Origin: Arenicola marina
Taxonomy: Eukaryota > Annelida > Polychaeta > Arenicolidae
DNA length: 64,000 bases
Direction: 5' to 3'
NCBI GenBank assembly: GCA_964019135.1
Contig: OZ025252.1
Coordinates: 44,118,959 to 44,182,958, forward strand
The position numbers were made by a program, and so were the translations under genes. Position 1 is the stretch's first letter, and each line of letters starts with the position of its first letter. Shown one piece after another: positions 2,495-57,600 of this stretch. The notes below the pieces were generated by a model. The model made no database searches and had not been told where the DNA came from. It was given only the letters and a program-made list of their open reading frames with translations.

Positions 2495-5400
2495 CTGCAA
2501 CGACAACACGGGACAATGCTCAGGCTGCGGAAAGGATGTGGTTAGGAAGGAGGGCCTTGAAGGCGAGGAGGGGCAGCGCTTGGGGAGGGAGGAGGGCCTT
2601 GAAAGCGAGGAGGGGCAGCGCTTGGGGAGGAAGGAGGGCCTTGAAGGCGAGGAGAGACAGCGCTTGGGGAGGAAGGAGGGCCTTGCAGGCGAGGAGGGGC
2701 AGCGCTTGGGGGGGGGAAGGACGGCCTTGAAGGCGAGGAGGGGCAGCGCTTGGGGAGGAAGGAGGGCCTTGAAGGCGAGGAGGGGCAGCGCTTAGGGAGG
2801 AAGGAGGGCCTTGAAGGCGAGGAGGGGCAGCCCTTGGGGAGGAAGGAGGGCCTTGAAGGCGAGGAAGGGCAGCGCTTGGGGAGGAAGGAGGACCTTGAAG
2901 GCGAGGAGGGGCAGCGCTTGGGAAGGAAGGAGGGCCTTGAAGGCGAGGAGGGGCAGCGCTTGGGGAGGAAGGAGGGCCTTGAAGGCGAGGAGGGGCAGCG
3001 CTTGGGGAGGAAGGGTGGCCTTGAAGGCGAGGAGGGGCAGCGCTTTGGGAGGAAGGAGGGCCTTGAAGGCGAGGAGGGGCAGCGCTTGGGGAGGAAGGAG
3101 GGCCTTGAAGGCGAGGAGGGGCAGCGCTTGGGGAGGAAGGAGGGCCTTGAAAGCAAATCTGTAAGATTACACTGTTCCGGAAGTGGATCTAAACCATAAC
3201 ACGGTTCAGAAAATGGATCTGAAAGATAACACAGTTCAGGAAGTGGATCTGTAAAAAAACACGGTTCAGGAAGTGGATCTGAAACATAACACGGTTCAGG
3301 AAGTTGATCTGAAACATAACACGGTTCAGGAAGTTGATCTGAAACATAACACGGTTCAGGAAGTGGATCTGAAACATAACAAGGTTCAGGAAGTTGATCT
3401 GAATCATAACACGGTTCAGGAAGTTGATCTGAAACATAACACGGTTCAGGAAGTTGATCTGAAACATAACACGGTTCAGGAAGTTGATCTGAAACATAAC
3501 ACGGTTCAGGAAGTGGATCTGAAACATAACGAGGTTCAGGAAGTTGATCTGAAACATAACACGGTTCAGGAAGTGGATCTGAAACATAACACGGTTCAGG
3601 AAGTGAACCTGAAACATAACAAGAATCATGAACTGAATCTTTGAAAGAACAAAACTCAAAAAGTAGATGATCTTTCAATGAACAAAGCTCAATAAGTATA
3701 TATTTAAAAAAAAATCAGGAAGTAGTACATCTTTAAACAAAAAAAGTCTTGTGCAACGCCCGGGAAGTGAGTCTTTTAAAGGTCAGATGGTAGGAGGTAT
3801 ATCATCACAGGAAAAGATCAGACGCGGATCTGATGAAAGCCAACGCGCGTTACTTCGGTTCGCGCCTGAGGCTCGGATTGGCATAGAATCAAAGGACATG
3901 TTTGCACACGTTAATCCAGGGCCCACCTCGGCAGGTAGGTTTTGTAAATACAAGGCTCGGAAGGCGGATATGGAAACAGCACCAGCGCAAGGAAGCGGAT
4001 ACTTTACAGCATAGACCACGCCACTTTACTATCGCCAGGAAATGGCTGCATATTACGGGAATACACCCGTGCGACGCGGCAGGCTAGTCAGGGCTTAAGG
4101 CAAGGCTCGGGATACCCAGTGCCCAGTATGGCTTCGCCTTATAGCAACCTTCAAAACCAGACAGCCGCATGGTTCACATCTTTTTTTCGAATGTTTAGGA
4201 CCATTATGAGGGGCAGCTTTAGGCGGGCCGCTCGTTCTGCTAAACGCTTGTACGACAACGAATAGCTCTCATGGCACAAATGTAACAAGGTAAGCCGCGA
4301 CATAACCTACAGGCGGCATTGCCATATTCTGTGAGATAGGACCTCCAACAGTCATATGACGACAATCCAGCCCAACTGCAGCGTTCACTATCATGTCCGA
4401 TATCCTCCGCTTTGCCAAGTACCGAAGACCAACATTTTTCGGAGCTACGTTGTTGAACGTTAAATGTACACAATGGCGGTACCATAGTCAACGGCCATTC
4501 TGGTTAAAAATTAAGGTTTTATCGTGTACGCCTAACCGACTGGCAAAACTTGTCTATATCAAGATTCTAGATCTGTTATATTCGCAACATGATGAGCGTA
4601 TGATTAGTGTATGGATGGGTGGATGATTAGGGTAAGGATGGGTGGATGATTAGTGTATGGATGGGTGGATGATGAGTGTATGGATGGGTGGATGATGAGT
4701 GTATGGATGGGTGGATGATGAGTGTATGGATGGGTGGATGATGAGTGTATGGGATGGGTGGATGATGAGTGTATGGATGGGTGGATGATGAGTGTATGGA
4801 TGGGTGGATGATGAGTGTATGGATGGGTAGATGATGAGTGTATGGATGGGTGGATGATTAGTGTATGGATGGGTGGATGATCAGTGTATGGATGGGTGGA
4901 TGATGAGTGTATGGATGGGTAGATGATGAGTGTATGGATGGGTGGATGATGAGTGTATGGATGGGTGGATGATGAGTGTATGGATGGGTGGATGATGAGT
5001 GTATGGATGGGTGGATGATTAGTGTATGGATGGGTGGATGATGAGTGTATGGATGGGTGGATGATGAGTGTATGGATGGGTAGATGATGAGTGTATGGAT
5101 GGGTGGATGATGAGTGTATGGATGGGTGGATGATGAGCGTATGGATGGATGGATGATCAGTGTATGGATGGGTGGATGATCAGTGTATGGATGGGTGGAT
5201 GATCAGTGTATGGATGGGTGGATGATCAGTGTATGGATGGGTGGATGATCAGTGTATGGATGGGTGGATGATCAGTGTATGGATGGGTAGATGATGAGTG
5301 CATGGATGGGTGGATGATGAGTGTATGGATGGGTGGATGATGAGTGTATGGATGAATGTATGGATGGGTGGATGATGGGTGTATGGATGGGTGGATGATG

Positions 5401-8400
5401 AGTGTATGGATGGGTGGATGATGAGTGTATGGATGGGTGGATGATGAGGGCAAGGATGGGTGTATGACGAGTGTATGGATGGGTGGATGATGAGTGTATA
5501 GATGGTTGGATGATGAGTGTATGGATGGGTAGATGATGAGTGTATGGATGGGTGGATGATGAGTATGGATGGGTGGATGATGGGTGGATGAGTGTATGGA
5601 TGGGTGGATGATGAGTGTATGAATGGGTGGATGATGGGTGTATGGGTGGTTGGATGATGGGTGGAAAAATGGTTGGGTGATGGGTGGATGGATGGGTGGA
5701 TGATGAGTGTATGGATGGGTGGGTAATGGGTGTATGGGTGAGCGTATGATGAGTGGATTGATGGATGATGGTTGTATGGATGGGTGGATGGATGGGTGGA
5801 TGATGAGTGTATGGATGGGTGGGTGATGGGTGTATGGGTGAGCGTATGATGAGTGGATTGATGGATGATGAGTGTATGGATGGGTGGATGATGGGTGTAT
5901 GGATGAGTGGGCGGATGGTTGGATGATGGGTGGATGTTGAATGAGATATTGAGTCGATGTTGGCTGAGATGATAGATAGATAGGTGAATAACGGACAGGC
6001 AGATCATGGATGGATGAATCACGGACATGTAGATGATGGATGGATGAATCACGGACAGGTAGATGATGGATGGGTGAGTCATGGACAGGTAGATGATGGA
6101 TGGGTAAATGCTTCATTGATGGATAGATAGATGAACGATAGATTGTTCAACATCCTGGGACACTGAGATGAAACATATGTGACGTCATTTCCAGACCCAG
6201 ATACCAGGCTAAAACGATATATTAGGGCCACACAATAGCAAACACAAAAGAATGGACAAGGAAGTAGACACATACACCTTAATGCGGATCTTACATCACA
6301 CTGGTTCAACAGGTTACAAACACATATACCAGAAGAGGAAGTGACCTACACACCGGACACAGTTGAGCGTAAGCCACGAAAGGCTGTAAACGGCTGCTAC
6401 ATCACAAAACAGTTCCCCCTTATGGGTCAACACATTTGAAATGAAGGATACAAAAAGACTACTTAGTTAATTGCACACCAACAATACATAGAGGAACAAC
6501 AATCACCGGCGAACCTTACAACACGAAAACACATTGCGGCCAAACTAACTGACACCGGCCATCAGTCCAGCTACATGTAAAAGCCGTCCACGACCAGTTT
6601 ACTGACCCAGGAGACGATCGTTGCTTACCTATGGAGTTACTTTAGCAAAAGTTTGAAAACACTATCTTTTACACGCTAACTTAACGTAGGTGTACGAGGA
6701 ACAAAATTAGACGCCATATAACGACCATTAGTGCGTAGCACCTTCCAGCCAATATTTTTCAAATTAATGTATCCTAAAGTTGTTTGATGATTTGTTATCG
6801 ATGTTTTTTTTCGGGACGCCAGCCCAGTTAGCAACTGGGGTAAGTGCCCAAACAGTAAAAGTACTTTCCGGCCAGCTGGAGTGGCACGCCTGGACTGCAG
6901 GGAGAAGAGGTATGGTGTCTAGTGCCTGAGACATTGCAACATTCCACAAAAAAAGCCAGCTCTACTCACCATTGACTAATGTCAGTGCTAAGCAAAAGTA
7001 CGGAGGAGGAAGAACAAAAACGGCAGTAATACTCAGACAAAAGTAATTTAATCTCTTGACCACGTTTTGTTTAAAATAAATGCCACCTAAGGTCTTTGAT
7101 TTCCATTCACGGGGACACATTAAGCTGAATAAGTTAATAATTCAAAACAATAGTAACTTAATGGAAGTAAAGGTTTATGATGCTAAGGGTGCTAACATGT
7201 CCAAACAATAACAATGACTAGAGGACATAAAATCCAGATTCTCACACAATTAGGGCATTAAATTGGATCATTGTTAGTGTTGCATTATCATACACCAGAC
7301 TTCTTCAACGACCTGCATCAATGACATTTGCCACAAAGGTTAATTTTCCAGAAATATGAAACCCATGGGCATGGGTAATTGATACAACAGTAGATTAGAG
7401 GTTATTTACATCACAATATAACAAAGGAACAACACTGCAATTACCATTTCTATCAATTAACACTACAAGCTTTTTCAGAACCAACAGTCAGGTACACAGT
7501 GCTTGATACAAACTGCTTTTATTTGCTTGCTGCAAACTACAGACTGAACAACTGGGAAACTCAAATATCCAGACAGCACATGCCATGAATAAACAGTATG
7601 AATGTGATAAAATATGTCTCATCCTACACGCAAGAAGACAAATAAAGAGACAAACTACGGTAATAAATAATATAAAAACTAATTTAACTAGATCTATATT
7701 ATTATATTTTATGAGATTTTTTATAAATAAGAGATCAACCAGATCAAATATATGAACTGAGATCCAATTGGTTTTATAGATTATAGCACAGAACCAAGCT
7801 AAGTAAGGATACATGCTTCATTTCGCTATATTTCCTCATTAAGTCAATTAGAAATATTTAGAATATTACAGTGCCACATAATATCCCATACTGCTTAAGG
7901 CAATGAAGGCATGAACTTATTTGTCAATACTTACCTCCTGTCATTGCCGACAAAGTCAAGGACACCAACTTCTGGTGACACATCTGAGCGGTACTTCCCA
8001 TAGGATACTTGTTTGGTGAGGGCAACCAGCTGGAGTTTGTCCTTGTATGAGAGCTTGATGGCTTTGCCTTCCTTATCTGCAACAACAAGTATCAGAAAAA
8101 ATTTAAACAATTCATCTTCCTGGTAACATATTACCTTGCATGTGTTTTTACCTTGAAGTATTTTAAGCATTCTTTGTAAATATCAAGTTTAACACAACCA
8201 AACCAAAAGAAATCATCTTGTTGCATTGCTTGAGTATTCTGATTACAGCAGTTTCCGGGGCATAAGTCACATTGGTGTATAAGTCCCCCCAGCCAATTTT
8301 GATATTTCGACTTAAGCCGTTTACAAGTCGCAACTTCCACGTAAGATTCGCCTGTGCGTGGAAGCCCTGTGTGCATGAAATAACATTATGTTAGTAAAAG

Positions 8401-17057: not shown

Positions 17058-20000
17058 GTAAATATTTATCTGTAACTGAACTGTAACTTGATTGATTATT
17101 AAAGAATGAATTCTCACACATTAAATTGCTGGTATAGTCATTCATGCAGATACAAAATACCGGTAGTTATATATGTGTGAATTAAGTAGTGCAGTTTAAA
17201 TTTGTATTTATTTCAGTTAACTTCAGTAAAATGTGTAGGCTAAAAAGGCTGAGATGTTGCATACATACAGTGATATATCAGTCGTTCTGTTTTTTATTCA
17301 GTCTTGCATCATGCATGGGACATATGGTTCAACCACATTGCATGCTGTTTAATGATGAACAAAAGGTAATGACACAACCTAGCCCAAAGGATTATTAACA
17401 GAATAAAGAAAGTATAATGAATGTGATTGATACACAACCAATGTGTAATGCCATAATGACGCTGTAAGCAGAACAGCAAAATTTAGGCCCTAAAATTCGA
17501 TTAACCTGGTAATAGCAAAATGTATACTGGTATTTTTTTTTATCTTCATTTTTGCTTAAATATACAAATGAACTACTATATTGCATTGCAGTTTTACATG
17601 TCCGAAGCACCTTGTGAGTTCTTACTGCTGTATTTTACTTTCTTCAGAACTCTCTGGAGTAACTTACCGTAATATGGATGTTCTCCCCCCCCCCCCTCCC
17701 TGTCCCAATAAATAAATTTGCCACCTGGATTCAGTGATGATACCATGTCTCACAAATAAATGTTTAGTTTAGTAATGTCTGAAAGTAAATTTATGAAACA
17801 TGGCATAGTGAAGATGGAGACTGATAAGAAGATATATAGATATATCTTGGCACACACTTTACCTTGGCTTCTTGTGACTTGTAGAAGACAGTAAGGAAGA
17901 TAATCATCTGTCTGGACATGATATATCTTGTCACACACTTTACCTTGGCTTCTTGTGACTTGTAGAAGACAGTAAGGAAGATAATCATCTGTCTGGACAT
18001 GATATATCTTGTCACACACTTTACCTTGGCTTCTTGTGACTTGTAGAAGACAGTAAGGAAGATAATCATCTGTCTGGACATGATATATCTTGTCACACAC
18101 TTTACCTTGGCTTCTTGTGACTTGTAGAAGACAGTAAGGAAGATAATCATCTGTCTGGACATGATATATCTTGTCACACACTTTACCTTGGCTTCTTGTG
18201 ACTTGTAGAAGACAGTAAGGAAGATAATCATCTGTCTGGACATGAGAAGCCAGTCGTTACAGGTAAACAAACTTGTTGCACCTCTTGTTGAACAATCTTT
18301 TAAACAATAATTTTTTTCTATGAAACTATATATTGGTAAATATTTCACCAAGATGCCCATTGTGTTTGTACAGTTGGAGAAACTGTTGTTCCACATATAA
18401 TATAGTTTTTATAAACATCCTCCAATGTGCTCTAATTACTGTACACAACCAGGCCTTAAACTGTGAAATGCAGTTTACATTGGTCTATATATTCCTAGTT
18501 TGCAGCAGACAAGCAAGCATTTGCTTTGACAGAAGTACAAAAGTTGGAAAAAGGTGAAGTGCTATATTGTTTCTGTCTTTTTTTTTAATTGCACTATTAT
18601 TTTGCCCTATATTAACACAATGACACACCGCTATTGTGTGTCGGTAACTATCTAATGGTGGGTCACATGTGAAGCAGAAAGCCATTATTCATATGTTGCA
18701 CCGTCGGTAAGCAAGCTGCGCTTCATATCAACAGGTCGTGGGTACTGCCACTGAGCCAAGTTTCATGTAACTCTATTTTATTGTACCGAGAGTGTTCTTG
18801 GCCCAATTTAACCTCCATGTGTATAGAATTAAGTGGGCTAAAACACCAACATTTCATTACTTTTCCTCTTTTCAGAACTCAAGTCGCTACTTCTCCAGGA
18901 CGCAAGAGAGTTTCCAGTGGACATAAGTAACTACAGCAGTGAGTTATCGTCCCTGCGATATCTGGAAGAGGAGGAGGTGTCGATAAACGTCCAAGCCAAC
19001 ACGGAACAAGACCCACAACGGTAAGAGTGTCAGCCAAACTATTAGTTACCTACATCCATACCCATTATTCTACTACAACTATTGCGGTAGTTACCTACAT
19101 CAATACCCATTATTGTACTACAACGATTACGGTAGTTACCTACATCCATACCCATTATTCTACTACAACTATTACGGTAGTTACCTACATCAATACCCAT
19201 TATTGTACTACAACGATTACGGTAGTTACCTACATCCATACCCTTTATTCTACTACAACTATTACGATAGTTACCTACATCCATACCCTTTATTCTACTA
19301 CAACTATTACGGTAGTTACCTACATCAATACCCATTATTGTACTACAACGATTACGGTAGTTACCTACATCCATACCCTTTATTCTACTACAACTATTAC
19401 GATAGTTACCTACATCCATACCCATTATTCTACTACAACTATTACGGTAGTTATCTACATCCATACCCTTTATTCTACTACAACTATTACGGTAGTTACC
19501 TACATCAATACCCTTTATTCTACTACAACTATTACGGTAGTTACCTACATCCATACCCATTATTCTACTACAAATATTACGGTAATTACCTACATCAATA
19601 CCCATTATTCTACTACAACTATTACGGTGGTTACCTACATCCATACTCTTTATTCTACTACAACTATTGCGGTAGTTACCTACATCCATACCCTTTATTC
19701 TACTACAACTATTACGGTAGTTACCTACATCAATACCCTTTATTCTACTACAACTATTACGGTAGTTACCTACATCCATACCCTTTATTCTACTACAACT
19801 ATTACGGTAGTTACCTACATCAATACCCATTATTCTACTACAACGATTACGGTAGTTACCTACATCCATACCCTTTATTCTACTACAACTATTACGGTAG
19901 TTACCTACATCCATACCCATTATTCTACTACAACTATTACGGTAGTTACCTACATCCATACCCATTATTGTACTACAACGATTACGGTAGTTACCTACAT

Positions 20001-23000
20001 CCATACCCTTTATTCTACTACAACTATTACGGTAGTTACCTACATCCATACCCATTATTCTACTACAAGTATTACGGTAGTTCCCTACATCCATACCCAT
20101 TATTCTACTACAACTATTACGGTAGTTACCTACATCCATACCCTTTATTCTACTACAACTATTACGGTAGTTACCTACATCCATACCCATTATTGTACTA
20201 CAACGATTACGGTAGTTACCTACATCCATACCCATTATTCTACTACAACTATTACGGTAGTTACCTACATCCATACCCATTATTCTACTACAACTATTGC
20301 GGTAGTTACCTACATCCATACCCTTTATTCTACTACAACTATTACGGTAGTTACCTACATCCATACCCTTTATTCAACTACAACTATTACGGTAGTTACC
20401 TACATCCATACCCTTTATTCTACTACAACTATTACGGTAGTTACCTACATCCATACCCATTATTGTACTACAACGATTACGGTAGTTACCTACATCCATA
20501 CCCTTTATTCTACTACAACTATTACGGTAGTTACCTACATCCATACCCATTATTCTACTACAACGATTGCGGTAGTTACCTACATCCATACCCTTTATTC
20601 TACTACAACTATTACGGTAGTTACCTACATCCATACCCATTATTCTACTACAACTATTACGGTACTTACCTACATCCATACCCTTTATTCAACTACAACT
20701 ATTACGGTAGTTACCTACATCCATACCCATTATTGTACTACAACGATTACGGTAGTTACCTACATCCATACCCATTATTGTACTACAACGATTACGGTAG
20801 TTACCTACATCCATACCCTTTATTCTACTACAACTATTACGGTAGTTACCTACATCCATACCCATTATTCTACTACAACTATTACGGTAGTTACCTACAT
20901 CCATACCCATTATTGTACTACAACGATTACGGTAGTTACCTACATCCATACCCATTATTGTACTACAACGATTACGGTAGTTACCTACATCCATACCCAT
21001 TATTGTACTACAACGATTACGGTAGTTACCTACATCCATACCCATTACTGTACTACAACGATTACGGTAGTTACCTACATCCATACCCATTATTCTACTA
21101 CAACGATTACGGTAGTTACCTACATCCATACCCATTATTGTACTACAACGATTACGGTAGTTACCTACATCCATACCCATTATTGTACTACAACTATTAC
21201 GGTAGTTACCTACATCCATACCCATTATTCTACTACAACTATTACGGTAGTTACCTACATCCATACCCATTATTGTACTACAACGATTACGGTAGTTACC
21301 TACATCCATACCCATTATTGTACTACAACGATTACGGTAGTTACCTACATCCATACCCATTATTGTACTACAACGATTACGGTAGTTACCTACATCCATA
21401 CCCTTTATTCTACTACAACTATTACGGTAGTTACCTACATCCATACCCATTATTCTACTACAACTATTACGGTAGTTACCTACATCTATACCCTTTATTC
21501 AACTACAACTATTACGGTAGTTACCTACATCCATACCCATTATTCTACTACAACTACTACGGTAGTTACCTACATCCATACCCATTATTCTACTGGGGCC
21601 GGCGCGACAGCTCAGTGGGCTAGAGCGCTCGCATTGAGTGCTCTGGTCACCTGAGAGCCTAACGGCACGTGGGTCGGTGGTTCGAGCCCTGCTGTGGCCA
21701 TGTCTATGTGGTCGCAAGATAAAGATCCCATGTCTTTCTTCGTAAAGAGTAGGGGGTTACCTCGGGGACATGGCTCCACTCTCCCTTCCTTCTCCCATTG
21801 ACGCGATATAACCAAAAGTGGTTAAAGCGTCCTGAATATGCAACCCGCCAAACCAAGCATGTCTATGTCTGACTATCTTGCTGGCAGTGTAGCTATTGTT
21901 TGTCTAGTAATAATTTGTTTTCCATAATATTTATATTATTTTTTTAAGACCGTCCTGCCACGTTGATAGCGTCGATGAGGACTCGGATGAGGAAGGTGAG
22001 TTGTTTTTATGGTAGTTATTGGTAATAGTATATGTCGATTATACTTAGTCATATAACATCATACCTCAAATTGCCTCGGGTTTCTCTCCCTTCCATGATC
22101 CGTTCAAAGTTCATACAGAACGCAAAGGGGGGTATACTTGGAGTGGTACCCTGGGGGTATATAGCTTGGAATGTATACCCTGTAAGTTTATACCCTGGGG
22201 GTGTATACACTGGGAGTCTATACCCTGGGAGTTTATACCCTGGGATTGTATACCATGGGTGTGTGTACCCTAGGAGTGTATACCCTGGTAGTGTATACCC
22301 TGGGCGTGTATACCCTGGGAGTGTACCATGGGTGTGTATACCCTGGGAGTGTATAACCAGCTGATATATACCCTGGGAGTGTATACCCTGGGGGTGTATA
22401 CCCTGGGAGTGTATACCCTGGGAGTGTATACCCTGGGAGTGTATACCCAGCTAGTGTATACCCTGAGGGTGTATATATTCTATAACCTCCGGTAGGCACG
22501 CGATAGTAAGTGACATCATTTACACACTCGCCTGACCGTGTTTTTTGCAGATACAGACACTGGCAGCCTCCTGTCACCCATCCCACCAGTGGAAGGCTTC
22601 ACCTCTATCACATTGCGACTGGAAAAGATCGGTCTAAAGGATCCCGCCCAGTACATTAACCCCTTTATTACTGTCACCGTCAAAGGTAAGATCATTATAA
22701 AAAAAGAATTACACATTGCCTGAATTAAAGGTGTGTTCTCCCGTACGCCATCTTATCTTAATGACGTGATTTCCTCTGATAAGTTATATAATGGCTTTTA
22801 GTTACTCTGCCGAGTGCTCCACCACGGACTGTATAGCAGTCAGGGTCAGGGTCAGGGTCAGGGTCAGGGCCAGGGTCAGGGCCAGGGTCAGGGTCAGGGT
22901 CAGGGCCAGGGTCAGGGTCAGGGTCAGGGCCAGGGTCAGGGCCAGGGCCAGGGTCAGGGTCAGGGCCAGGGCCAGGGCCAGGGTCAGGGCCAGGGTCAGG

Positions 23001-31775: not shown

Positions 31776-32504
31776 CGGGGCAGGTCGCCGTCAAAAGTTA
31801 TCTTGTCTGAGGTGCGCAATGTCTGCCTAAGTTAGGTGTTGCTGTCCCCAGCTGGGCAAGGGCCACTTAGGTCGACACAAGCCAACTTGTACCACGGCAT
31901 GTAAGCCCAGGTCAAACTAACGGTTAAACTAGGCAGTGCTGAACACTGTGTAGGGCGGGGCAGGTGGGGCTAGGACATGCCGGGGTTGGGGGCGGGGGGG
32001 TTACATACAACTGGCTAGGATTGGCTTGGCTTGACTAGGCCAGATTGCACTTGGCTGGCTAACTTTGGGATTAGCTTTGGTCGGCTGAACTAGGATGGAA
32101 TGGCCTAGCTGGGCCCGGCTAGGGAGGAGGAGCAGAGGAAGGAAGCGGTGTGAAAGACGCCTCTCCACTTTTAGCTGTTCTCGGACGAGGTGCACAGATA
32201 GTCATCCGGGCGTTTGTGATTCTCGAGGGCTTTCAGGGTGTACGTGTCATGCGGGAGCTCCGACTTCCGGCGAAGCAGCGGCTTCTCTCTATTGCGCTGC
32301 TTCTTTGTCACCTGTCAATTCAAAAACATGCCGAAAGAAAAAACACAAGTGTCAGTACTTAGTAAACATACAAAAAACACGCTATGATGTCAGCTCAGAA
32401 ACAAAGTTAACAAAATAAGGACACAAATTCGTTGGTAGCTGTAGCTAATAATTAAACAAACAACATGCTTCCCAAATGTAACGTCTAGCGAAAAAAACGT
32501 ATGC

Positions 32505-36128: not shown

Positions 36129-36689
36129 TCACTTGGACCGCAGCTTGCTGATCAGCTTGCTGCCGGCTGACTTGTTATTATTGCTGTTACTATTGCTTGG
36201 CGCGCTGTTGGCAGTGGCCACGTTATTAACGGTGGACGCCGCGTTTTTGTTGGCGGTCACGTGACCCGCCTGGCGCGGCTGGTTGCTCTTAGCGTTCGCG
36301 CCGCCGACACCAGAGGCGCTGCTAGACGCCAGGTTGTTGCCAGGGTTACCGGCCACGACGTTGCCACGCTGCTGGGGCGGCGCCGGCATCGCGGGGTTGT
36401 TGTTGTTGGCGGGGGGTCTGGAGACGCCCACCGCGGAGGAGGGGTTGGCCGGTTTGGCTTGAGAGGCGGTGGTGGAGGCGGAGGCGGAGGCGGTGGTGGT
36501 GGTGGTAGTGGTGGTGGCGGGGGGTGAATGTATTGCATTGAGGGCATTGAGACGCGGGACCTCCCTGACCTCTTGCTCTTTGTGCAGCGCCGTGATGTCA
36601 AGGTCCGAGTCGGCGTCGTCGCCCGGCCCGCCCTCCTGGGACGTGGGGCTGCCGCCCGGCAAGACACGGTTGTTCGCCAGGTCCTTGAA
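36129..36689 (-). CDS. PPP2R5: PPP2R5 last coding exon (15), low-complexity C-terminus
   Basis: Acceptor TCGTTGCAG before 36689, stop TGA at 36131-36129. It codes residues 493-678: [13 protein letters not shown], an acidic patch [17 protein letters not shown], a run of eight Thr then Ala/Ser repeats, and an Asn/Ala/Ser/Pro-rich tail ending KLISKLRSK. It does not resemble the C-terminal tails of vertebrate gamma or delta. The frame follows directly from exon 14 (SNPQ). Confidence 0.75.
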   Translation of the reverse strand, partial: FKDLANNRVLPGGSPTSQEGGPGDDADSDLDITALHKEQEVREVPRLNALNAIHSPPATTTTTTTTASASASTTASQAKPANPSSAVGVSRPPANNNNPAMPAPPQQRGNVVAGNPGNNLASSSASGVGGANAKSNQPRQAGHVTANKNAASTVNNVATANSAPSNSNSNNNKSAGSKLISKLRSK

Positions 36690-39600
36690 CTGCAACGAGG
36701 CAGCAACCATCACCATGGTTACTGGACAGCCAATACGGCGCTTGTCGCTGACCAGCTACCGCCACCCTTATATCTATGCAGTCAATAGCCGTGTCTACAG
36801 CCAGTGGCCAGAACGATACCATCGATTTGCTTTTACTCGATGTTCCAGTCATACTTTCTCCAAATACCGTGCCGAGAGACGCAGGAGACTGTACATAATT
36901 CCACGGTTATCACAGACAGGTCCAAGGTTCATATCGTTACCTGAGGATTTGACTTGGCCAAGTTGTTGATCTTTAACCACGCTTCGTCCCGTTCCTTCAG
37001 CTTCTCCTTCTCCCTGGAGATAGCAACAACAATTTTTAACACACAAATACGTGATCTCCAACAACATTTGAAGTGTACGTAGTTACTAACGTGTATACAC
37101 TGCAGCCATGTTCCAAATCAATAAATAACAGTAATGGAACTTAAAAGTGTCACAGCAACGAAACCTTGTAAATAGAATTTTGTGTTATTAACTCATGGAG
37201 CCTGCGTTTTCATGACAATGTTCAACAGCATTTTAATGTAAGTATCAGACAGAGGCCTTAACTTCTTTATCCCTTTATCAAAAGTCGTTCTCACAAGTTA
37301 GTCTAAAATAAACTACATTTACTTCATCACAATATGTTTTTAAACCCGGAGTTAATGCCACGGCGTTAGGTTTCCTTGGCGATCGGACGCCTACTTTTGT
37401 CGCTCTATCTTGTGCTGCTGCGTGCAGTCGTCGAACAGCTTCTGGTTCATCTCCATGAACAGCTTCAGCGCGTTGTAAATCAACCCGTGGATTGTCCTGC
37501 AAGGTATACATTCCACCATTACAACTGTCCACCAACCCGTGGATTATCCTGCAAGGTATACATTCCACCATTACAACTGTCCACCAACCCGTGGATTGTC
37601 CTGCAAGGTATACATTCCGCCATTACAACTGTCCACCAACCCGTGGATTGTCCTGTAAGGTATACATTCCGCCATTACAACTGTCCACCAACCCGTGGAT
37701 TGTCCTGTAAGGTATACATTCCGCCATTACAACTGTTCACCAACCCGTGGATTGTCCTGTAAGGTATACATTCCGCCATTACAACTGTCCACCAACCCGT
37801 GGATTGTCCTGCAAGGTATACATTCCGCCATTACAACTGTCCACCAACCCGTGGATTGTCCTGTAAGGTATACATTCCGCCATTACAATTGTCCACCAAC
37901 CCGTGGATTGTCCTGTAAGGTATACATTCCGCCATTACAACTGTCCATCAACCCGTGGATTGTCCTGCAAGGTATACATTCCGCCATTACAACTGTCCAC
38001 CAACCCGTGGATTGTCCTGTAAGGTATACATTTCGCCATTACAACTGTCCATCAACCCGTGGATTGTCCTGTAAGGTATACATTCCGCCATTACAACTGT
38101 CCATCAACCCGTGGATTGTCCTGCAAGGTATACATTCCGCCATTACAACTGTCCACCAACCCGTGGATTGTCCTGCAAGGTATACATTCCGCCATTACAA
38201 CTGTCCATCAACCCGTGGATTGTCCTGTAAGGTATACATTCCGCCATTACAACTGTCCACCAACCCGTGGATTGTCCTGTAAGGTATACATTCCGCCATT
38301 ACAACTGTCCATCAACCCGTGGATTGTCCTGCAAGGTATACATTCCGCCATTACAACTGTCCATCAACCCGTGGATTGTCCTGTAAGGTATACATTCCGC
38401 CATTACAACTGTCCACCAACCCGTGGATTGTCCTGTAAGGTATACATTCCGCCATTACAACTGTCCACCAACCCGTGGATTGTCCTGTAAGGTATACATT
38501 CCGCCATTACAACTGTCCACCAACCCGTGGATTGTCCTGTAAGGTATACATTCCGCCATTACAACTGTCCACCAACCGTGGATTGTCCTGTAAGGTATAC
38601 ATTCCGCCATTACAACTGTCCACCAACCCGTGGATTGTCCTGTAAGGTATACATTCCGCCATTACAACTGTCCACCAACCCGTGGATTGTCCTGTAAGGT
38701 ATACATTCCGCCATTACAACTGTCCACCAACTCGTGGATTGTCCTGTAAGGTATACATTCCGCCATTACAACTGTCTATCAACCCGTGGATTGTCCTGTA
38801 AGGTATACATTCCGCCATTACAACTGTCCACCAACCCGTGGATTGTCCTGTAAGGTATACATTCCGCCATTACAACTGTCCACCAACCCGTGGATTGTCC
38901 TGCAAGGTATACATTCCGCCATTACAACTGTCCACCAACCCGTGGGTTGTCCTGTAAGGTATACATTCCGCCATTACAACTGTCCACCAACCCGTGGATT
39001 GTCCTGCAAGGTATACATTCCGCCATTATAACTGTCCATCAACCCGTGGATTGTCCTGTAAGGTATACATTCCGCCATTACAACTGTCCACCAACCCGTG
39101 GGTTGTCCTGTAAGGTATACATTCCGCCATTACAACTGTCCACCAACCCGTGGGTTGTCCTGTAAGGTATACATTCCGCCATTACAACTGTCCACCAACC
39201 CGTGGATTGTCCTGCAGGGTATACATTCCGCCATTACAACTGTCCACCAACCCGTGGATTGTCCTGCAAGGTATACATTCCGCCATTACAACTGTCCACC
39301 AACCCGTGGATTGTCCTGTAAGGTATACATTCCGCCATTACAACTGTCCACCAACCCGTGGATTGTCCTGTAAGGTATACATTCCGCCATTACAACTGTC
39401 CATCAACCCGTGGATTGTCCTGCAAGGTATACATTCCGCCATTACAACTGTCCACCAACCCGTGGATTGTCCTGTAAGGTATACATTCCGCCATTACAAC
39501 TGTCCATCAACCCGTGGATTGTCCTGTAAGGTATACATTCCGCCATTACAACTGTCCATCAACCCGTGGATTGTCCTGCAAGGTATACATTCCGCCATTA

Positions 39601-42600
39601 CAACTGTCCACCAACCCGTGGATTGTCCTGCAAGGTATACATTCCGCCATTACAACTGTCCATCAACCCGTGGATTGTCCTGTAAGGTATACATTCCGCC
39701 ATTACAACTGTCCACCAACCCGTGGATTGTCCTGTAAGGTATACATTCCGCCATTACAACTGTCCATCAACCCGTGGATTGTCCTGCAAGGTATACATTC
39801 CGCCATTACAACTGTCCATCAACCCGTGGATTGTCCTGTAAGGTATACATTCCGCCATTACAACTGTCCACCAACCCGTGGATTGTCCTGTAAGGTATAC
39901 ATTCCGCCATTACAACTGTCCACCAACCCGTGGATTGTCCTGTAAGGTATACATTCCGCCATTACAACTGTCCACCAAACCGTGGATTGTCCTGTAAGGT
40001 ATACATTCCGCCATTACAACTGTCCACCAACCGTGGATTGTCCTGTAAGGTATACATTCCGCCATTACAACTGTCCACCAACCCGTGGATTGTCCTGTAA
40101 GGTATACATTCCGCCATTACAACTGTCCACCAACCCGTGGATTGTCCTGTAAGGTATACATTCCGCCATTACAACTGTCCACCAACTCGTGGATTGTCCT
40201 GTAAGGTATACATTCCGCCATTACAACTGTCCATCAACCCGTGGATTGTCCTGTAAGGTATACATTCCGCCATTACAACTGTCCACCAACCCGTGGATTG
40301 TCCTGTAAGGTATACATTCCGCCATTACAACTGTCCACCAACCCGTGGATTGTCCTGTAAGGTATACATTCCGCCATTACAACTGTCCACCAACCCGTGG
40401 ATTGTCCTGCAAGGTATACATTCCGCCATTACAACTGTCCATCAACCCGTGGATTGTCCTGTAAGGTATACATTCCGCCATTACAACTGTCCATCAACCC
40501 GTGGATTGTCCTGTAAGGTATACATTCCGCCATTACAACTGTCCACCAACCCGTGGGTTGTCCTGTAAGGTATACATTCCGCCATTACAACTGTCCACCA
40601 ACCCGTGGGTTGTCCTGTAAGGTATACATTCCGCCATTACAACTGTCCACCAACCCGTGGATTGTCCTGTAAGGTATACATTCCGCCATTACAACTGTCC
40701 ATCAACCCGTGGATTGTCCTGTAAGGTATACATTCCGCCATTACAACTGTCCACCAACCCGTGGATTGTCCTGCAAGGTATACATTCCGCCATTACAACT
40801 GTCCATCAACCCGTGGATTGTCCTGTAAGGTATACATTCCGCCATTACAACTGTCCACTAACCCGTGGATTGTCCTGTAAGGTATACACATTCCGCCATT
40901 ACAACTGTCCACCAACCCGTGGATTGTCCTGTAAGGTATACATTCCACCATTACAACTGTCCACCAACCCGTGGATTGTCCTGTAAGGTATACATTCCGC
41001 CATTACAACTGTCCACCAACCCGTGGATTGTCCTGCAAGATATACATTCCGCCATTACAACTGTCCACCAACCCGTGGATTGTCCTGCAAGGTATACATT
41101 CCGCCATTACAACTGTCCACCAACCCGTGGATTGTCCTGTAAGGTATGCATTCCGCCATTACAACTGTCCATCAACCCGTGGGTTGTCCTGTAAGGTATA
41201 CATTCCACCATTACAACTGTCCATCAACCCGTGGATTGTCCTGTAAGGTATACATTCCGCCATTACAACTGTCCATCAACCCGTGGATTGTCCTGTAAGG
41301 TATACATTCCGCCATTACAACTGTCCACCAACCCGTGGATTGTCCTGTAAGGTATACATTCCGCCATTACAACTGTCCACCAACCCGTGGATTGTCCTGT
41401 AAGGTATACATTCCGCCATTACAACTGTCCACCAACCCGTGGATTGTCCTGCAAGGTATACATTCCGCCATTACAACTGTCCACCAACCCGTGGGTTGTC
41501 CTGTAAGGTATACACATTCCGCCATTACAACTGTCCACCAACCCGTGGATTGTCCTCCAAGGTATACATTCCGCCATTACAACTGTCCATCAACCCGTGG
41601 ATTGTCCTGTAAGGTATACATTCCGCCATTACAACTGTCCACCAACCCGTGGATTGTCCTGTAAGGTATACATTCCGCCATTACAACTGTCCACCAACCC
41701 GTGGATTGTCCTGCAAGGTATACATTCCGCCATTACAACTGTCCACCAACCCGTGGATTGTCCTGCAAGGTATACATTCCGCCATTACGACTGTCCACCA
41801 ACCCGTGGATTGTCCTGTAAGGTATACATTCCGCCATTACAACTGTCCATCAACCCGTGGGTTGTCCTGTAAGGTATACATTACAACTGTCCACCAACCC
41901 GTGGATTGTCCTCCAAGGTATACATTCCGCCATTACAACTGTCCATCAACCCGTGGATTGTCCTGTAAGGTATACATTCCGCCATTACAACTGTCCACCA
42001 ACCCGTGGATTGTCCTGTAAGGTATACACATTCCGCCATTACAACTGTCCACCAACCCGTGGATTGTCCTGTGAGGTATACATTCCACCATTACAACTGT
42101 CCACCAACCCGTGGATTGTCCTGTAAGGTATACATTCCGCCATTACAACTGTCCACTAACCCGTGGATTGTCCTGCAAGGTATACATTCCGCCATTACAA
42201 CTGTCCACCAACCCGTGGATTGTCCTGCAAGGTATACATTCCGCCATTACGACTGTCCACCAACCCGTGGATTGTCCTGTAAGGTATACATTCCGCCATT
42301 ACAACTGTCCATCAACCCGTGGGTTGTCCTGTAAGGTATACATTACAACTGTCCACCAACCCGTGGATTGTCCTGTAAGGTATACATTCCACCATTACAA
42401 CTGTCCACCAACCCGTGGGTTGTCCTGTAAGGTATACATTCCGCCATTACAACTGTCCACCAACCCGTGGATTGTCCTGTAAGGTATACATTCCGCCATT
42501 ACAACTGTCCACCAACCCGTGGATTGTCCTGTAAGGTATACATTCCGCCATTACAACTGTCCACCAACCCGTGGATTGTCCTGTAAGGTATACATTCCGC

Positions 42601-45600
42601 CATTACAACTGTCCACCAACCCGTGGATTGTCCTGTAAGGTATACATTCCGCCATTACAACTGTCCACCAACCCGTGGATTGTCCTGTAAGGTATACACA
42701 TTCCGCCATTACAACTGTCCACCAACCCGTGAATTGTCCTGTAAGGTATACATTCCACCATTACAACTGTCCACCAACCCGTGGGTTGTCCTGTAAGGTA
42801 TAACATTCCGCCATTACAACTGTCCACCAACCCGTGGATTGTCCTGTAAGGTATACATTCCGCCATTACAACTGTCCACCAACCCGTGGGTTGTCCTGTA
42901 AGGTATACATTCCGCCATTACAACTGTCCACCAACCCGTGGATTGTCCTGTAAGGTATACATTCCGCCATTACAACTGTCCACCAACCCGTGGGTTGTCC
43001 TGTAAGGTATACATTCCGCCATTACAACTGTCCACCAACCCGTGGATTGTCCTGTAAGGTATACACATTCCGCCATTACAACTGTCCATCAACCCGTGGA
43101 TTGTCCTGTAAGGTATACATTCCGCCATTACAACTGTCCACCAACCCGTGGGTTGTCCTGTAAGGTATACATTCCGCCATTACAACTGTCCACCAACCCG
43201 TGGATTGTCCTGTAAGGTATACACATTCCGCCATTACAACTGTCCATCAACCCGTGGGTTGTCTTGTAAGGTATATATTCCGCCATTACAACTGTCAGCC
43301 ACGGGACACGTTACCAGTATCGGGCAATGCGCCATGTACGATTTCAACTATGTCGCAAATTTATAAAAATGAAATACCGATAACGTATAGTAGAACAAAA
43401 CCGTTCAAAAACTGTTACCGTCGACTTCAAAGTTATAGTTCATAGTTGTTCTATTCCCCGTTACCTCGATTGAAGGACAAGGCGACAAACTGTTTGTAGT
43501 TTCTCCACCCACAAAACCTCTTTGCGCTTGTACGGACAATGACTTTATCTCATGAATGGTCGCGACCGGTGGAAGGCCCTATTAAAATGTTTGAACCGTC
43601 CGTCGGTAACGCTACAGTTTATTGGAGAAATTCGCGTTAAAATCACTTACTTGTTCCAATGCTGCTTGGTTCTGTACAGGGCCGGAAATATGATGGGGAG
43701 TATTTCACTGACGTTGTCACTGATTAAACTCAAAATGTACTCATTGTTCCAGTAGTACAATGCTCGCTCGGCAACCTGGGGAGAAAAAAGAAACGAATGC
43801 GATTTCGAGCCAAGTAACCGGCAATACACATACATACGGAAACACTTTTGGCCCACTGAATACAAGAAACCATACAACCGGTAAATTAATCTTGGAACTA
43901 CATGGACTAGCAAATCCCTAGGACATCCCGTGAAATTTTGACACATTTTCCCATTGAACGTCATTAATGCCAACGAGCACTATTTTTACACACACAATTA
44001 CAATGTTACAGAAAAATAATATAGGTATTCATATTTAGGCCACTTTTGTGTATTATGTACCAAGACTCCTCCACAGACAAAGAAATAGGGTTTATCAAAC
44101 ACGCTGCCGGATGCAGGAACCAGTGTTCGTACTCTGGAACCGTCCTAACGCAGCTCAGCCTGCTTACCAACTGAGCAAGAGAGGCTCCTTAATGTTACAG
44201 AGGCAAGAGAATATCTGGCCACATAGTCTCACATCGCATGGATTGTACCTGGAAGTGTGGGCTGGAGACACATTTGGCCAGTTGTTTAAACAATGGGACC
44301 ATCACTTTGTGGAATTCTGCCGGCTCGATCACATCAAGGATCTCCTCCAGCTCGTTCAAGAACATCACCTGTAAAGTGCGAGGCGAGGCGTCACAACCAC
44401 AGAATACACGCCACTGAAACAGACCCAATACCCTATCAAGTGGCGCGGTCGCAATGATAATGTTAATGACACATAGAACCAATTAAATAATCTTAGTGTC
44501 ACAACCATAGCCTAAGTTACTCATATGAAATATACGTGAATATGTAATGAAGTCAAATACATATCATTTATCTTATTAATTTTACAGGCAGTTTATTTCC
44601 TCTATACCCACACCAGAGAGCTTACCTCTTTCGGACTGTGAACCTTTGGCCAGAATTTAAGTAGACCCATGATTACCTGAAAATAGCAACACCGTCAGGG
44701 TCAATGAAAAACACCTAAATCAGCACTGATAAAAACTGTGTTTTACAGACTACCACTTTATTTCGGCTATAAGACCCAAGGATCACATAAAGGAAAAACA
44801 CGTAGGCCAGTAAAGACAGAGGAAACCACAATAAGTTTTAGTGCGCCAAAGTAATAAAGGCATTTGCCCAAAACAAGAAAACTATGTGTGTATGTATGTT
44901 TATCGTCTATATTGAAGTATTTAGGGAATTGATCCTTATTAAGGGACTTACATAGAACTGCATTGATAGTTTTCCACGTTTGCTTCAGATCAGTCTTGTA
45001 TTTTTGAAAGAGGTAATCATAATGTTGTTTCTTTGCAAGTTGTATATTTCGGGTGAGGATGAGGTTATATGTGGCGAGGTTGGTTTTGAAAGTGGGGTAC
45101 TCAGGAGAGTTTGCCAAAGTTTGTTTTAATAAAAATATAATCTTTATTAAACTCACAGGCTCGGTTAAGCTGGGGTCCTTCTCCAGGAACTGGACGACAC
45201 AATAAGCAAGCTGCGGGTGATATACACTGAGCGACTTGACTTTGTGCAGAGGCAACAACACTCGCAGCAAGAAGACCTTATGTTCCTCCTTCAGAGGCAA
45301 CGCGAAGCCGTTGATTATACTGCAATGACAACAACAAGGCATTTAACGAACTGCACTCCCAAATAATTGATCCGGTCGGCCTAGACACGGTTTAACACGC
45401 ACGATAGATATCGATCCAGCTTGCCTATACACAAGCGGATACACATGCGCGGAATATGGCGCTATTAACATACGATTCGGATTGCGATGCAATGTATACA
45501 ACACGAAATTAAACGTCCAGTCCAGCTGGGATTAGCTGCATAATAATTTATATTACGCTTCGATAGAAGAACTCTTACCTTCCCAGAATTTCCAGTAGCT

Positions 45601-54600: not shown

Positions 54601-57600
54601 CCACAAGGGTGCCTAGATTCACACCACAGGGGTACCTAGATTCACACTACAATCGTGCCTAGATTCACACCAGAATGGTGCTTAGATTCACACCACAAGT
54701 GCCTAGATTCACACCAGAATGGTGCTTAGATTCACACCACAAGTGCCTAGATTCACACCAGAATGGTGCTTAGATTCACACCAAAAGAGTGCCTAGATTC
54801 AGACCACAATGGTGCCTAGATTCACCACAATGGTGCCTAGATTCACCACAATGGTGCAGATTCACACCACAATGGTGCCTAGATTCACACCACAAGACTG
54901 CCTAGATTCAGACCACAAGAATCCCGAGATTCACACCACAAGGGTGCCTAGATTCACACCACAAGGTTGCCCTGATTCACACCACAAGGGTGCCTAGATT
55001 CACACTATAATGGTGCCTAGATTCTCACAAGGGTGCCTAGATTCACACCACAAGGGTGCCTAGATTCACACCACAAGGGTGCCTAGATTCACACCACAAG
55101 GGTGCCTAGATTCACACCACAATGGTGCCTAGATTCACACCACAAGGACGCCGAGATTGACAGATTTACAAATGCGTCCAGACACAATGCATCAAGCGTC
55201 TGACATCACAAAGGCGTTGAGCAAAACGTGCCTAAAGTTCAGACAAAACCGGCCCAACTATAGTAACAAGAATAAACAAACTAATAGTTTAGCACATGGT
55301 TTAAAACGTATCTGAGGTGATGGGTACCATGTATTTTCCAGCGTTGGGGCGACGCTGGCAAATTTGGCGACGTACAATTTGAGAAACAGTCATGTCCGTT
55401 TGCCCATTCTCTTTTGAGTATAAAAAATCCATCAGCCCACCCAGCGTCAAAATCAGACAATAAAGCACAATAGACTGTGTAATGACCTTCAGTATATCCA
55501 TTCCACACCAAAAAAACTGTTTTGACCATATGCAACCCAACTTTATCGTAACTGAGACATACTACAATATAATAGATACAGGTTAGCTATTTCTATTACA
55601 TAGAACAAAATCTGTCATATATTAACGCATCTCTGTAATATGATTCCCTGCGTTATATGACCTCATCAGCTAGTCCCACAGTATAAAGCAGCGACCATTG
55701 TAGTTGCAGAGACGACATGTAAGCCCTGTTGGCCGCCAGTTAGTAAGTTAGTTACCTGTAGGTGCGGCCAGGCCGCTTCCAACGTGGGCTCGTCCTCCTC
55801 TGGATCAAACTCAGCCCCACTGGGGTTGGAGGACGGTGGCAATGCCCGGAACAAGTTGTATGCAAACTGGAAAAAAAAGAACACATATACTAATTGACAT
55901 TTAATAAGCCTTGCATTAAGAACAAAACAACAATAGCAAAACGTGATATGATCATCCTGAGACATTAGTTTTAATGAGAGATTACAGATCTCCAAGTAGA
56001 GGGCTTGATCAGCATTTCAGGGTCTTGTCAAGGTGAATCTTGTCTGGACTAAAGTGGAGCATTTGGGGGGCACTAATTTTCTAAACGTCCTCCATTCCTA
56101 ACATTTATAGGATTTTGCGCTGCAGATTTGTCTGATTTTTATTTGATATGGGTGGGATTAACAGCACTTTCAGCATGTAAGGCTACATTGTGCCATGTTT
56201 TATCTGACGGTTGAAGCGAAGTTGCTATGGTTATGACTAGGATCCTCCATCAAGCAGAAGTTAATCTCACAACAGCACAAACTTTTTTTTCTCTCCACTG
56301 CCGAACAACAGTTCACATATCCTCATTTCATACATTTCACAGGAAGCAAAGGAACATACCATATTAATGGCCTCTGGATATATGGCATCAGTGACGACGC
56401 CCCTGTTTTGTGATACATATTCCACCAGTTCGTTAAGAGCAGCTCTCTTAACTTCCTTGAATTTGAGGTCACTCAATGGATCCTGAACAAAGTCAAACAG
56501 CACCATACACTGACGCAACTTCTGGATGAAGAGATCCTCCCGCTCCCCAGGGGTGGCATCTGCAACAAGGCAACACAGATATGGCAATGACAATGGTCTT
56601 GATATATAAGACAATACTGTACAGATATGGTAATAACAATGGTCTTTATTTAATCTTGTACCAAAACCAAAATACAGGAAACCAAATGATAACTATCAGT
56701 CAAGCCAACTCTGCAAGTTGCTGGCAAGGTTAAATGTCAATAAGGCACAGATGTGCAATTTTAAAATTTATACATATAAACATTCCAAATGTATAATATA
56801 TAGTTATTTGTACTTTATATAAGCCAAAAACAGACCAGTACCTTTAAGGAGAGGCAGTTTTTGCAATTCTCGATTCTTCGTCAGATTAAACCTTGATGAG
56901 TTCTGACGTTTGTCTTTTTTAATTGTTGGAACCCCTGCCATTGGCTTTATCTTTGTCAACGCAGTAGTGGGAGGGTGATCCTGATTTGATGCTGCCTTTT
57001 TCTTCTGAAAAAAGAACATAGATTTCACATATTACTGTTGACATATGACCATGCATTGTTATCACAATATGTCAATAGACATAGACAATATGTCAATAAA
57101 CAAGATGTTGTCTTGCACCTAAATTGAGTAACATCTAGTACAATTTTAAATATTACATATTTCTCCCAATCAGTCTGTAATTCCATCAGATGTATAATGA
57201 TTGATCATATTTGTGGATAGATGCATATAACAGCTAAATATGTCCAAGAAACCAACTGACACAAGAAAGAAAGATCTGTGTAAAAACCTTTATCACAACA
57301 TAAATTACATACTTTATCTTCACAGAAAGGCAATAGGTACATGTTATGGATTTAGATAGCCAAAACAAACCAATGATGTTTCAGATTTAAAGGAAACACA
57401 TGGCACAGTAGGATGCAATTACAAAGCACACTGTCATACAACTGTTGTCTTGTAATGTAAAGAAGTCTCCAAGCCTGTTGTAAGATGCTTTACCATATAA
57501 AAGTATGTTATAACATTTAGAATGAAATTAACTATTTTTTTCTTTCAGGTCCTTTTGTGCAAATGAAGGGCTGAGATATGTCCACGGACCACAAAATTGG

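Follow-up and report, generated by a model that had tools for sequence, protein, structure and literature searches.

The B56 (PPP2R5) gene on the minus strand of the 64,000-nt window, the whole stretch of DNA that was analysed, carries a tandem array made from one of its own intron-exon boundaries. We interpret it as a boundary minisatellite of the type described as mirages in amphioxus, mainly a tolerated mutational by-product whose last copy is chosen by cross-exon recognition, and we put the probability of this reading at roughly 78%. The minisatellite would have been seeded from a 3' intron-exon boundary of the gene. Slippage and unequal exchange would then have multiplied the unit to about 112 copies in a minisatellite-rich, annelid-like genome, leaving all copies but the exon-proximal one in the intron. 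The spliceosome would use the last copy because this copy alone is followed by the body of a real exon, with a donor close by. The decoys, as weak acceptors with no exon behind them, would be mostly ignored, and transcripts that enter them would be out of frame and probably decay.

The B56 gene and the array at one of its acceptors

The minus-strand exons can be joined into one open frame that matches B56/PPP2R5. The human gamma isoform chain of a solved structure matched the window protein at E 3.1e-240, and Pfam detected B56 (E 5.3e-24) in the single exon-bearing open reading frame scanned. Domain and structural homology together identify a B56 (PPP2R5) regulatory subunit, as the original prediction had proposed. 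The coding exons located were 14, of which 12 are in the joined frame and 2 more came from tblastn (Table 1); the 5'-most exons of the gene were not found in the window. The exon starting with TIHGL is the 11th of these 14; its earlier numbering as exon 13 is not established. The C-terminal exon at 32311-32171 indicates that the gene extends beyond the FKDL exon, which was first taken as the last.

In the protein search, the 8000 candidates sharing most words were scored and the best 120 were listed, many without an organism name. The best full-length match was Paralvinella palmiformis (89% over the query). Among the matches listed, the second by score was a nematode entry (69% over 83%), and the further ones with an organism shown were mainly molluscs, with some annelids, a brachiopod, a hemichordate and a termite. 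In a B56 tree of 14 hand-picked rows, with no lancelet row, the window protein grouped with the annelid Paralvinella (97/97). An annelid-like host is likely on these results, which do not favour a lancelet origin.

Table 1. Exons of the B56 gene and parts of the array-bearing intron, in the direction of transcription
Feature	Position	Strand	Basis
5'-most B56 exon found	56843..57007	(-)	tblastn; boundaries approximate
B56 coding exon upstream of the array (VAERALYYW...KQHWNK), donor GTAAGT	43651..43775	(-)	joined frame; tblastn, B56 homologs
Non-array 5' part of the 6154-nt intron	43297..43650	(-)	other intron sequence, outside the repeat call
Intronic part of the 52-bp array, 111 decoy junctions	37497..43296	(-)	repeat call and junction reading
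Genuine TIHGL exon, 102 nt, donor GTAGGC	37395..37496	(-)	repeat call, joined frame
B56 exon after the TIHGL exon (...SNPQ)	36941..37013	(-)	joined frame; aligned to human PPP2R5C
B56 FKDL exon (FKDLANN...HKEQE)	36570..36689	(-)	end at 36570 if spliced to 32311, as inferred
Conserved C-terminal B56 exon (...SENS*)	32171..32311	(-)	tblastn with P0121, E 4.6e-16; acceptor read

Two exons of the gene are continued by open frames. The FKDL exon either ends at 36570 and splices to 32311 or reads on to a TGA at 36129 (36129-36689). The read-through tail is of low complexity, rich in Thr, Ser and Asn, and is a possible alternative C-terminus. Past the IINGF exon, an open frame (44767-45157) runs about 130 codons into the intron; our impression is that it may be a mobile element remnant.

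Tandem Repeats Finder called the array at 37481-43296 with a period of 52, 111.9 copies and 96% matches, and its score (10696) was the highest among the 51 rows of the window. Read on the minus strand, the unit consists of 16 nt of exon and 36 nt of intron end. The 16-nt part matches the first bases of the TIHGL exon exactly (GACAATCCACGGGTTG), and the intron-derived part is mostly CCTTACAG or CCTTGCAG. The first 16 nt of the genuine exon (37481-37496) form the last, partial unit. Most segments are exactly 52 nt long (100 of 112); the others measure 54 nt (six), 51 nt (two), 44 nt (two) and 53 nt (one), and the outermost is a partial segment of 37 nt. The unit and the copy number (about 111) had been predicted correctly, the unit being confirmed by both the repeat call and the segment reading. 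The predicted extent, 37481 to 43651, was too long, however: the array stops at 43296, and position 43651, outside the array, is the final base of the exon upstream.

An AG is present at 111 of the 112 acceptor junctions, and the outermost one (43263) has AA. The tally is therefore 110 AG decoys, one dead copy and one genuine site, and about 110 decoys had been foreseen. The innermost decoy junction lies at 37548. The whole exon follows only junction 37496, the last of the 112, which also agrees with the original prediction. Like a mirage, the unit spans the intron-exon boundary, and the gene-proximal copy alone joins an intact exon (frame check of 112 junctions). The intron between the HWNK exon (43651) and the TIHGL exon (37496) is 6154 nt long. 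From the outermost array junction to the true acceptor it measures 5767 nt, so about 390 nt would remain without the array.

An invading repeat with no more than a likeness to the exon was ruled out, because the 16 nt encode the conserved B56 residues TIHGL; the conservation of this exon start had been anticipated. Within the window, blastn with the unit hit only two chance-level places outside the array (12 and 22 nt, E 0.71).

The array contains 34 unit types. Nine types were seen exactly twice, at lags of 7, 7, 9, 9, 9, 25, 28, 28 and 49 units, and a permutation test of the lag agreement among these pairs gave P=0.0005. Blocks separated by 28 units show differences at single units. Matching lags together with single-unit differences are as predicted by duplication of several units followed by mutation. 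This claim relies on the rare types; the lag-28 signal over all unit types was borderline (0.274; shuffles 95% 0.258, 99% 0.277) and was set aside. In this one assembly, the block duplications indicate past changes of length. In 28 units an A follows TTG, as in the real exon; somewhat more than 16 exonic nt may therefore have been included in the first duplication.

Four polymorphic columns and the partial unit at the outer end were excluded from the count of variation. Changes were found in 7 of 1663 exon-derived and 13 of 3649 intron-derived cells of the decoys, and in none of the 222 cells of the two AG columns. The exonic and intronic parts vary alike, giving no sequence sign of selection on the decoys in this one array at low power; because variation is so low, weak selection would be missed.

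Reading frame and strength of the splice sites

The phase of the upstream exon needs G|ACA ATC CAC GGG TTG ATT TAC, as was found at 37496, and the protein read through this junction keeps matching human B56. Among the 112 array junctions the B56 frame stays open at 37496 only, which rules out a genuine acceptor at any other array junction. All 111 decoy junctions lead to a frameshift or a stop. Entry at 97 of them gives TIHGL, 21 further residues and then TAA, so that the stop follows 377 residues when counting begins at the ATPG exon, and another 13 decoys stop at 370, 394, 395 or 430 residues. The penultimate copy shifts the frame, and its stop, at 456, lies 92 nt from the start of the downstream FKDL exon. 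The earlier estimate of about 25 novel codons before a stop thus fits the 97 decoys but not the penultimate copy. Nonsense-mediated decay is expected when 50 nt or more separate a stop from the junction that follows it. By this rule, decoy entry is predicted to trigger decay in 110 of 111 cases, as a poison exon would, and decoy-entering transcripts probably decay.

Acceptors were scored against a position matrix built on the 11 acceptors other than 37496, and each of these 11 was withheld from the matrix when it was scored itself. With eleven training sites the model is rough. The true acceptor at 37496 scored -0.2 and ranked last of 12, while the remaining 11 ranged from 2.7 to 16.2. The 112 array junctions had a median of -2.7, a minimum of -6.0 and a maximum of 1.4, so certain decoys outscore the true acceptor; 15% of 2919 other AGs on the minus strand score at least as well. 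By this rough model both the decoys and the true acceptor are weak sites, which cuts both ways: the decoys should attract splicing poorly, yet the genuine site has no advantage over them. The donor of the TIHGL exon scored 5.03 with a donor frequency table, the second weakest of 11. Leakage is therefore quite possible, given the weakest of 12 acceptors, the second weakest of 11 donors and some decoys that score higher.

Local site strength alone cannot explain the expected use of the last copy, since 111 junctions share the intron end and the first 16 exonic nt. Only the last copy is followed by an exon body, with a donor at a distance of 102 nt. By analogy, exon definition plausibly picks this copy. 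According to the available text of PMC9225289, long flanking introns favour the closest sites across the exon; for acceptors of the long/long class, the upstream preference was significantly reduced rather than reversed. The array itself lengthened the intron and so may promote its own neglect. Concealment of the decoys by RNA structure was rejected, as only one of four folded stretches beat its shuffles (z -2.28; the others 0.14, -0.95 and -0.48).

Known boundary repeats and alternative readings

Mirages are minisatellites across an intron-exon boundary, reportedly without disturbing splicing (PMC3087553, PMC3902484). The available text of these reports places them in amphioxus Adh3, BflGb6, BflGb9, troponin C and PGBD5 as tandem copies across the boundary, as in the B56 gene. 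Adh3 units are given as 10-72 bp by papers that cite the original description. PGBD5 has 2 or 7 copies of 60 bp and 3 or 6 copies of 108 bp, with Adh and troponin C cited (PMC3902484). BflGb6 has units of 150-160 bp in 6 and 3 copies in two haplotypes; as in the B56 array, the unit joins the 3' end of an intron to the beginning of an exon. According to RT-PCR, its splicing appeared to be undisturbed, and the signals could serve as cryptic sites (PMC3087553). In mirages and in the B56 array alike, the outermost or boundary units differ and one copy is genuine. In contrast to the mirages described there, which have at most 7 copies where numbers are given and come from amphioxus, the B56 array has a 52-bp unit and 112 junctions in an annelid-like host; host and scale (111 decoys) are what is new. 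Tolerance is not simply transferable from the mirages, because 111 AG-bearing copies are far beyond the published ones. The B56 array is an extreme case of this known kind and not a proven new switch.

Splice-site arrays are reported from human genes as well, according to the available text of the following sources; the present one is an acceptor-side form with more than 100 copies. In the VNTR of ABCA7 intron 18, the 25-bp unit begins with a splice donor and alleles reach many kb. Use of the repeat-unit donor is about 2%, gives a premature stop and does not depend on length, while skipping of the next exon rises strongly with array length (PMC5954066). That array is on the donor side, whereas the B56 array, read from DNA, is on the acceptor side. 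In human duplicated genes, new introns are reported to arise from internal tandem repeats located at exon-intron boundaries (PMC2812944), and in Cryptococcus introns were gained through the expansion of repeats (PMC2395259). These repeats duplicate splice signals as the B56 array does. The altered introns have transcript support and the mirages have RT-PCR support, whereas the B56 array is known here from genome sequence alone. In an earthworm, minisatellite arrays in an intron and untranscribed copies of one exon were found, and the available text describes none across a splice site (PMC12783039).

The array could be a splicing rheostat, in which a steady fraction of transcripts enters the decoys and is lost to nonsense-mediated decay, so that array length sets the PP2A-B56 dose. 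This is unlikely. The original prediction had suggested such a role, tuned by copy number, and nothing in the present data supports either part of it. The stops at least 50 nt before the next junction (110 of 111 entries) and the weak acceptor and donor of the TIHGL exon are consistent with it, and in ABCA7 an array beside a splice site does alter splicing with length, as next-exon skipping (PMC5954066). However, selection on the decoys was not seen, the amphioxus mirages are reported without splicing disturbance (PMC3087553, PMC3902484), and use of the ABCA7 repeat-unit donor is constant across lengths. We consider it very improbable that the array is a working brake whose copy number sets the share of PPP2R5 pre-mRNA entering decoys, with escapees giving a truncated B56 core. 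If this were true, decoy mRNA that escapes decay would encode a core cut right after TIHGL (query residues 352-356). Such a core would retain the entire segment (query residues 3-346) that several solved human B56-gamma chains contain, and might fold and bind substrates without normal holoenzyme function.

An assembly artefact, with an inflated copy number or a misplaced array, is quite improbable. Long arrays are hard to assemble, and a mirage in the amphioxus draft was found to be wrongly assembled (PMC3087553), but the 34 unit types, the block duplicates that differ by point changes, the degenerate outer edge and the gene intact on both sides argue against it. The array is real in the assembly at about 112 copies; the exact copy number is unproven. 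It is highly improbable that the units are nascent exons, spliced as 16-nt exons now or later, or that the array is turning into a new arrangement of intron and exon, a course that the available text of the reports proposes for mirages and for splice signals duplicated in tandem. A GT directly after the exon part (TTG|GTG) exists in 81 of 112 units, and the new human and Cryptococcus introns (PMC2812944, PMC2395259) would be precedents. By the donor frequency table, however, the unit GT scores 0.98 versus 3.8-11.0 for 11 real donors, and a 16-nt exon shifts the frame. The least credible possibility is a working sponge, whose tandem weak acceptors would bind U2AF or U2, slow the intron and delay gene expression. 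A branch-like GTAAT motif, matching 4 of 5 consensus positions, occurs in all but one of the 112 units and lies 23 nt from the end of the one unit measured; it would suit this idea, but the acceptor scores are weak and the binding is hypothetical.

The array is also a natural experiment in acceptor choice, with 111 near-identical junctions against one true site. If copy-number alleles exist, the leak per decoy and the rule of exon definition would be measurable in a highly conserved gene.

The minisatellite-rich window

Arrays of at least three copies numbered 24 after they were taken by hand from the 51 repeat rows and merged, and they cover 25% of the window. In a circular-shift test, whose exon ends were off by 1-3 nt at three places, 1 of 26 B56 splice junctions lay inside arrays versus a mean of 6.6 expected (P of at most one, 0.047). 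Without the 52-bp array, 0 of 26 were covered and 4.2 were expected (P 0.11). Since 6.6 of 26 were expected by shift and one was seen, no special cause is needed for an array on a splice junction. We counted this result, the alike variation of the exonic and intronic parts and the normal splicing reported for BflGb6 (PMC3087553) for the by-product reading, in which we infer the array to be neutral.

No Rfam family or tRNA was detected in the window at default thresholds. For other genes, 29 of 69 listed open reading frames (at least 75 aa, outside B56 and mostly outside arrays) and one B56 frame were scanned against Pfam, and of these 30 only the B56 frame matched. Two further long arrays lie at 19043-21594 (45-bp unit, 56.7 copies) and 4600-5940 (23-bp unit, 58.3 copies). 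At 17839-18245 no gene was recognised, and two neighbouring open reading frames had no Pfam match; the array there, a possible second splice-site array, has an 81-bp unit in 5.0 copies with 99% matches, and its minus strand holds the donor-like motif AAG|GTAAAG.
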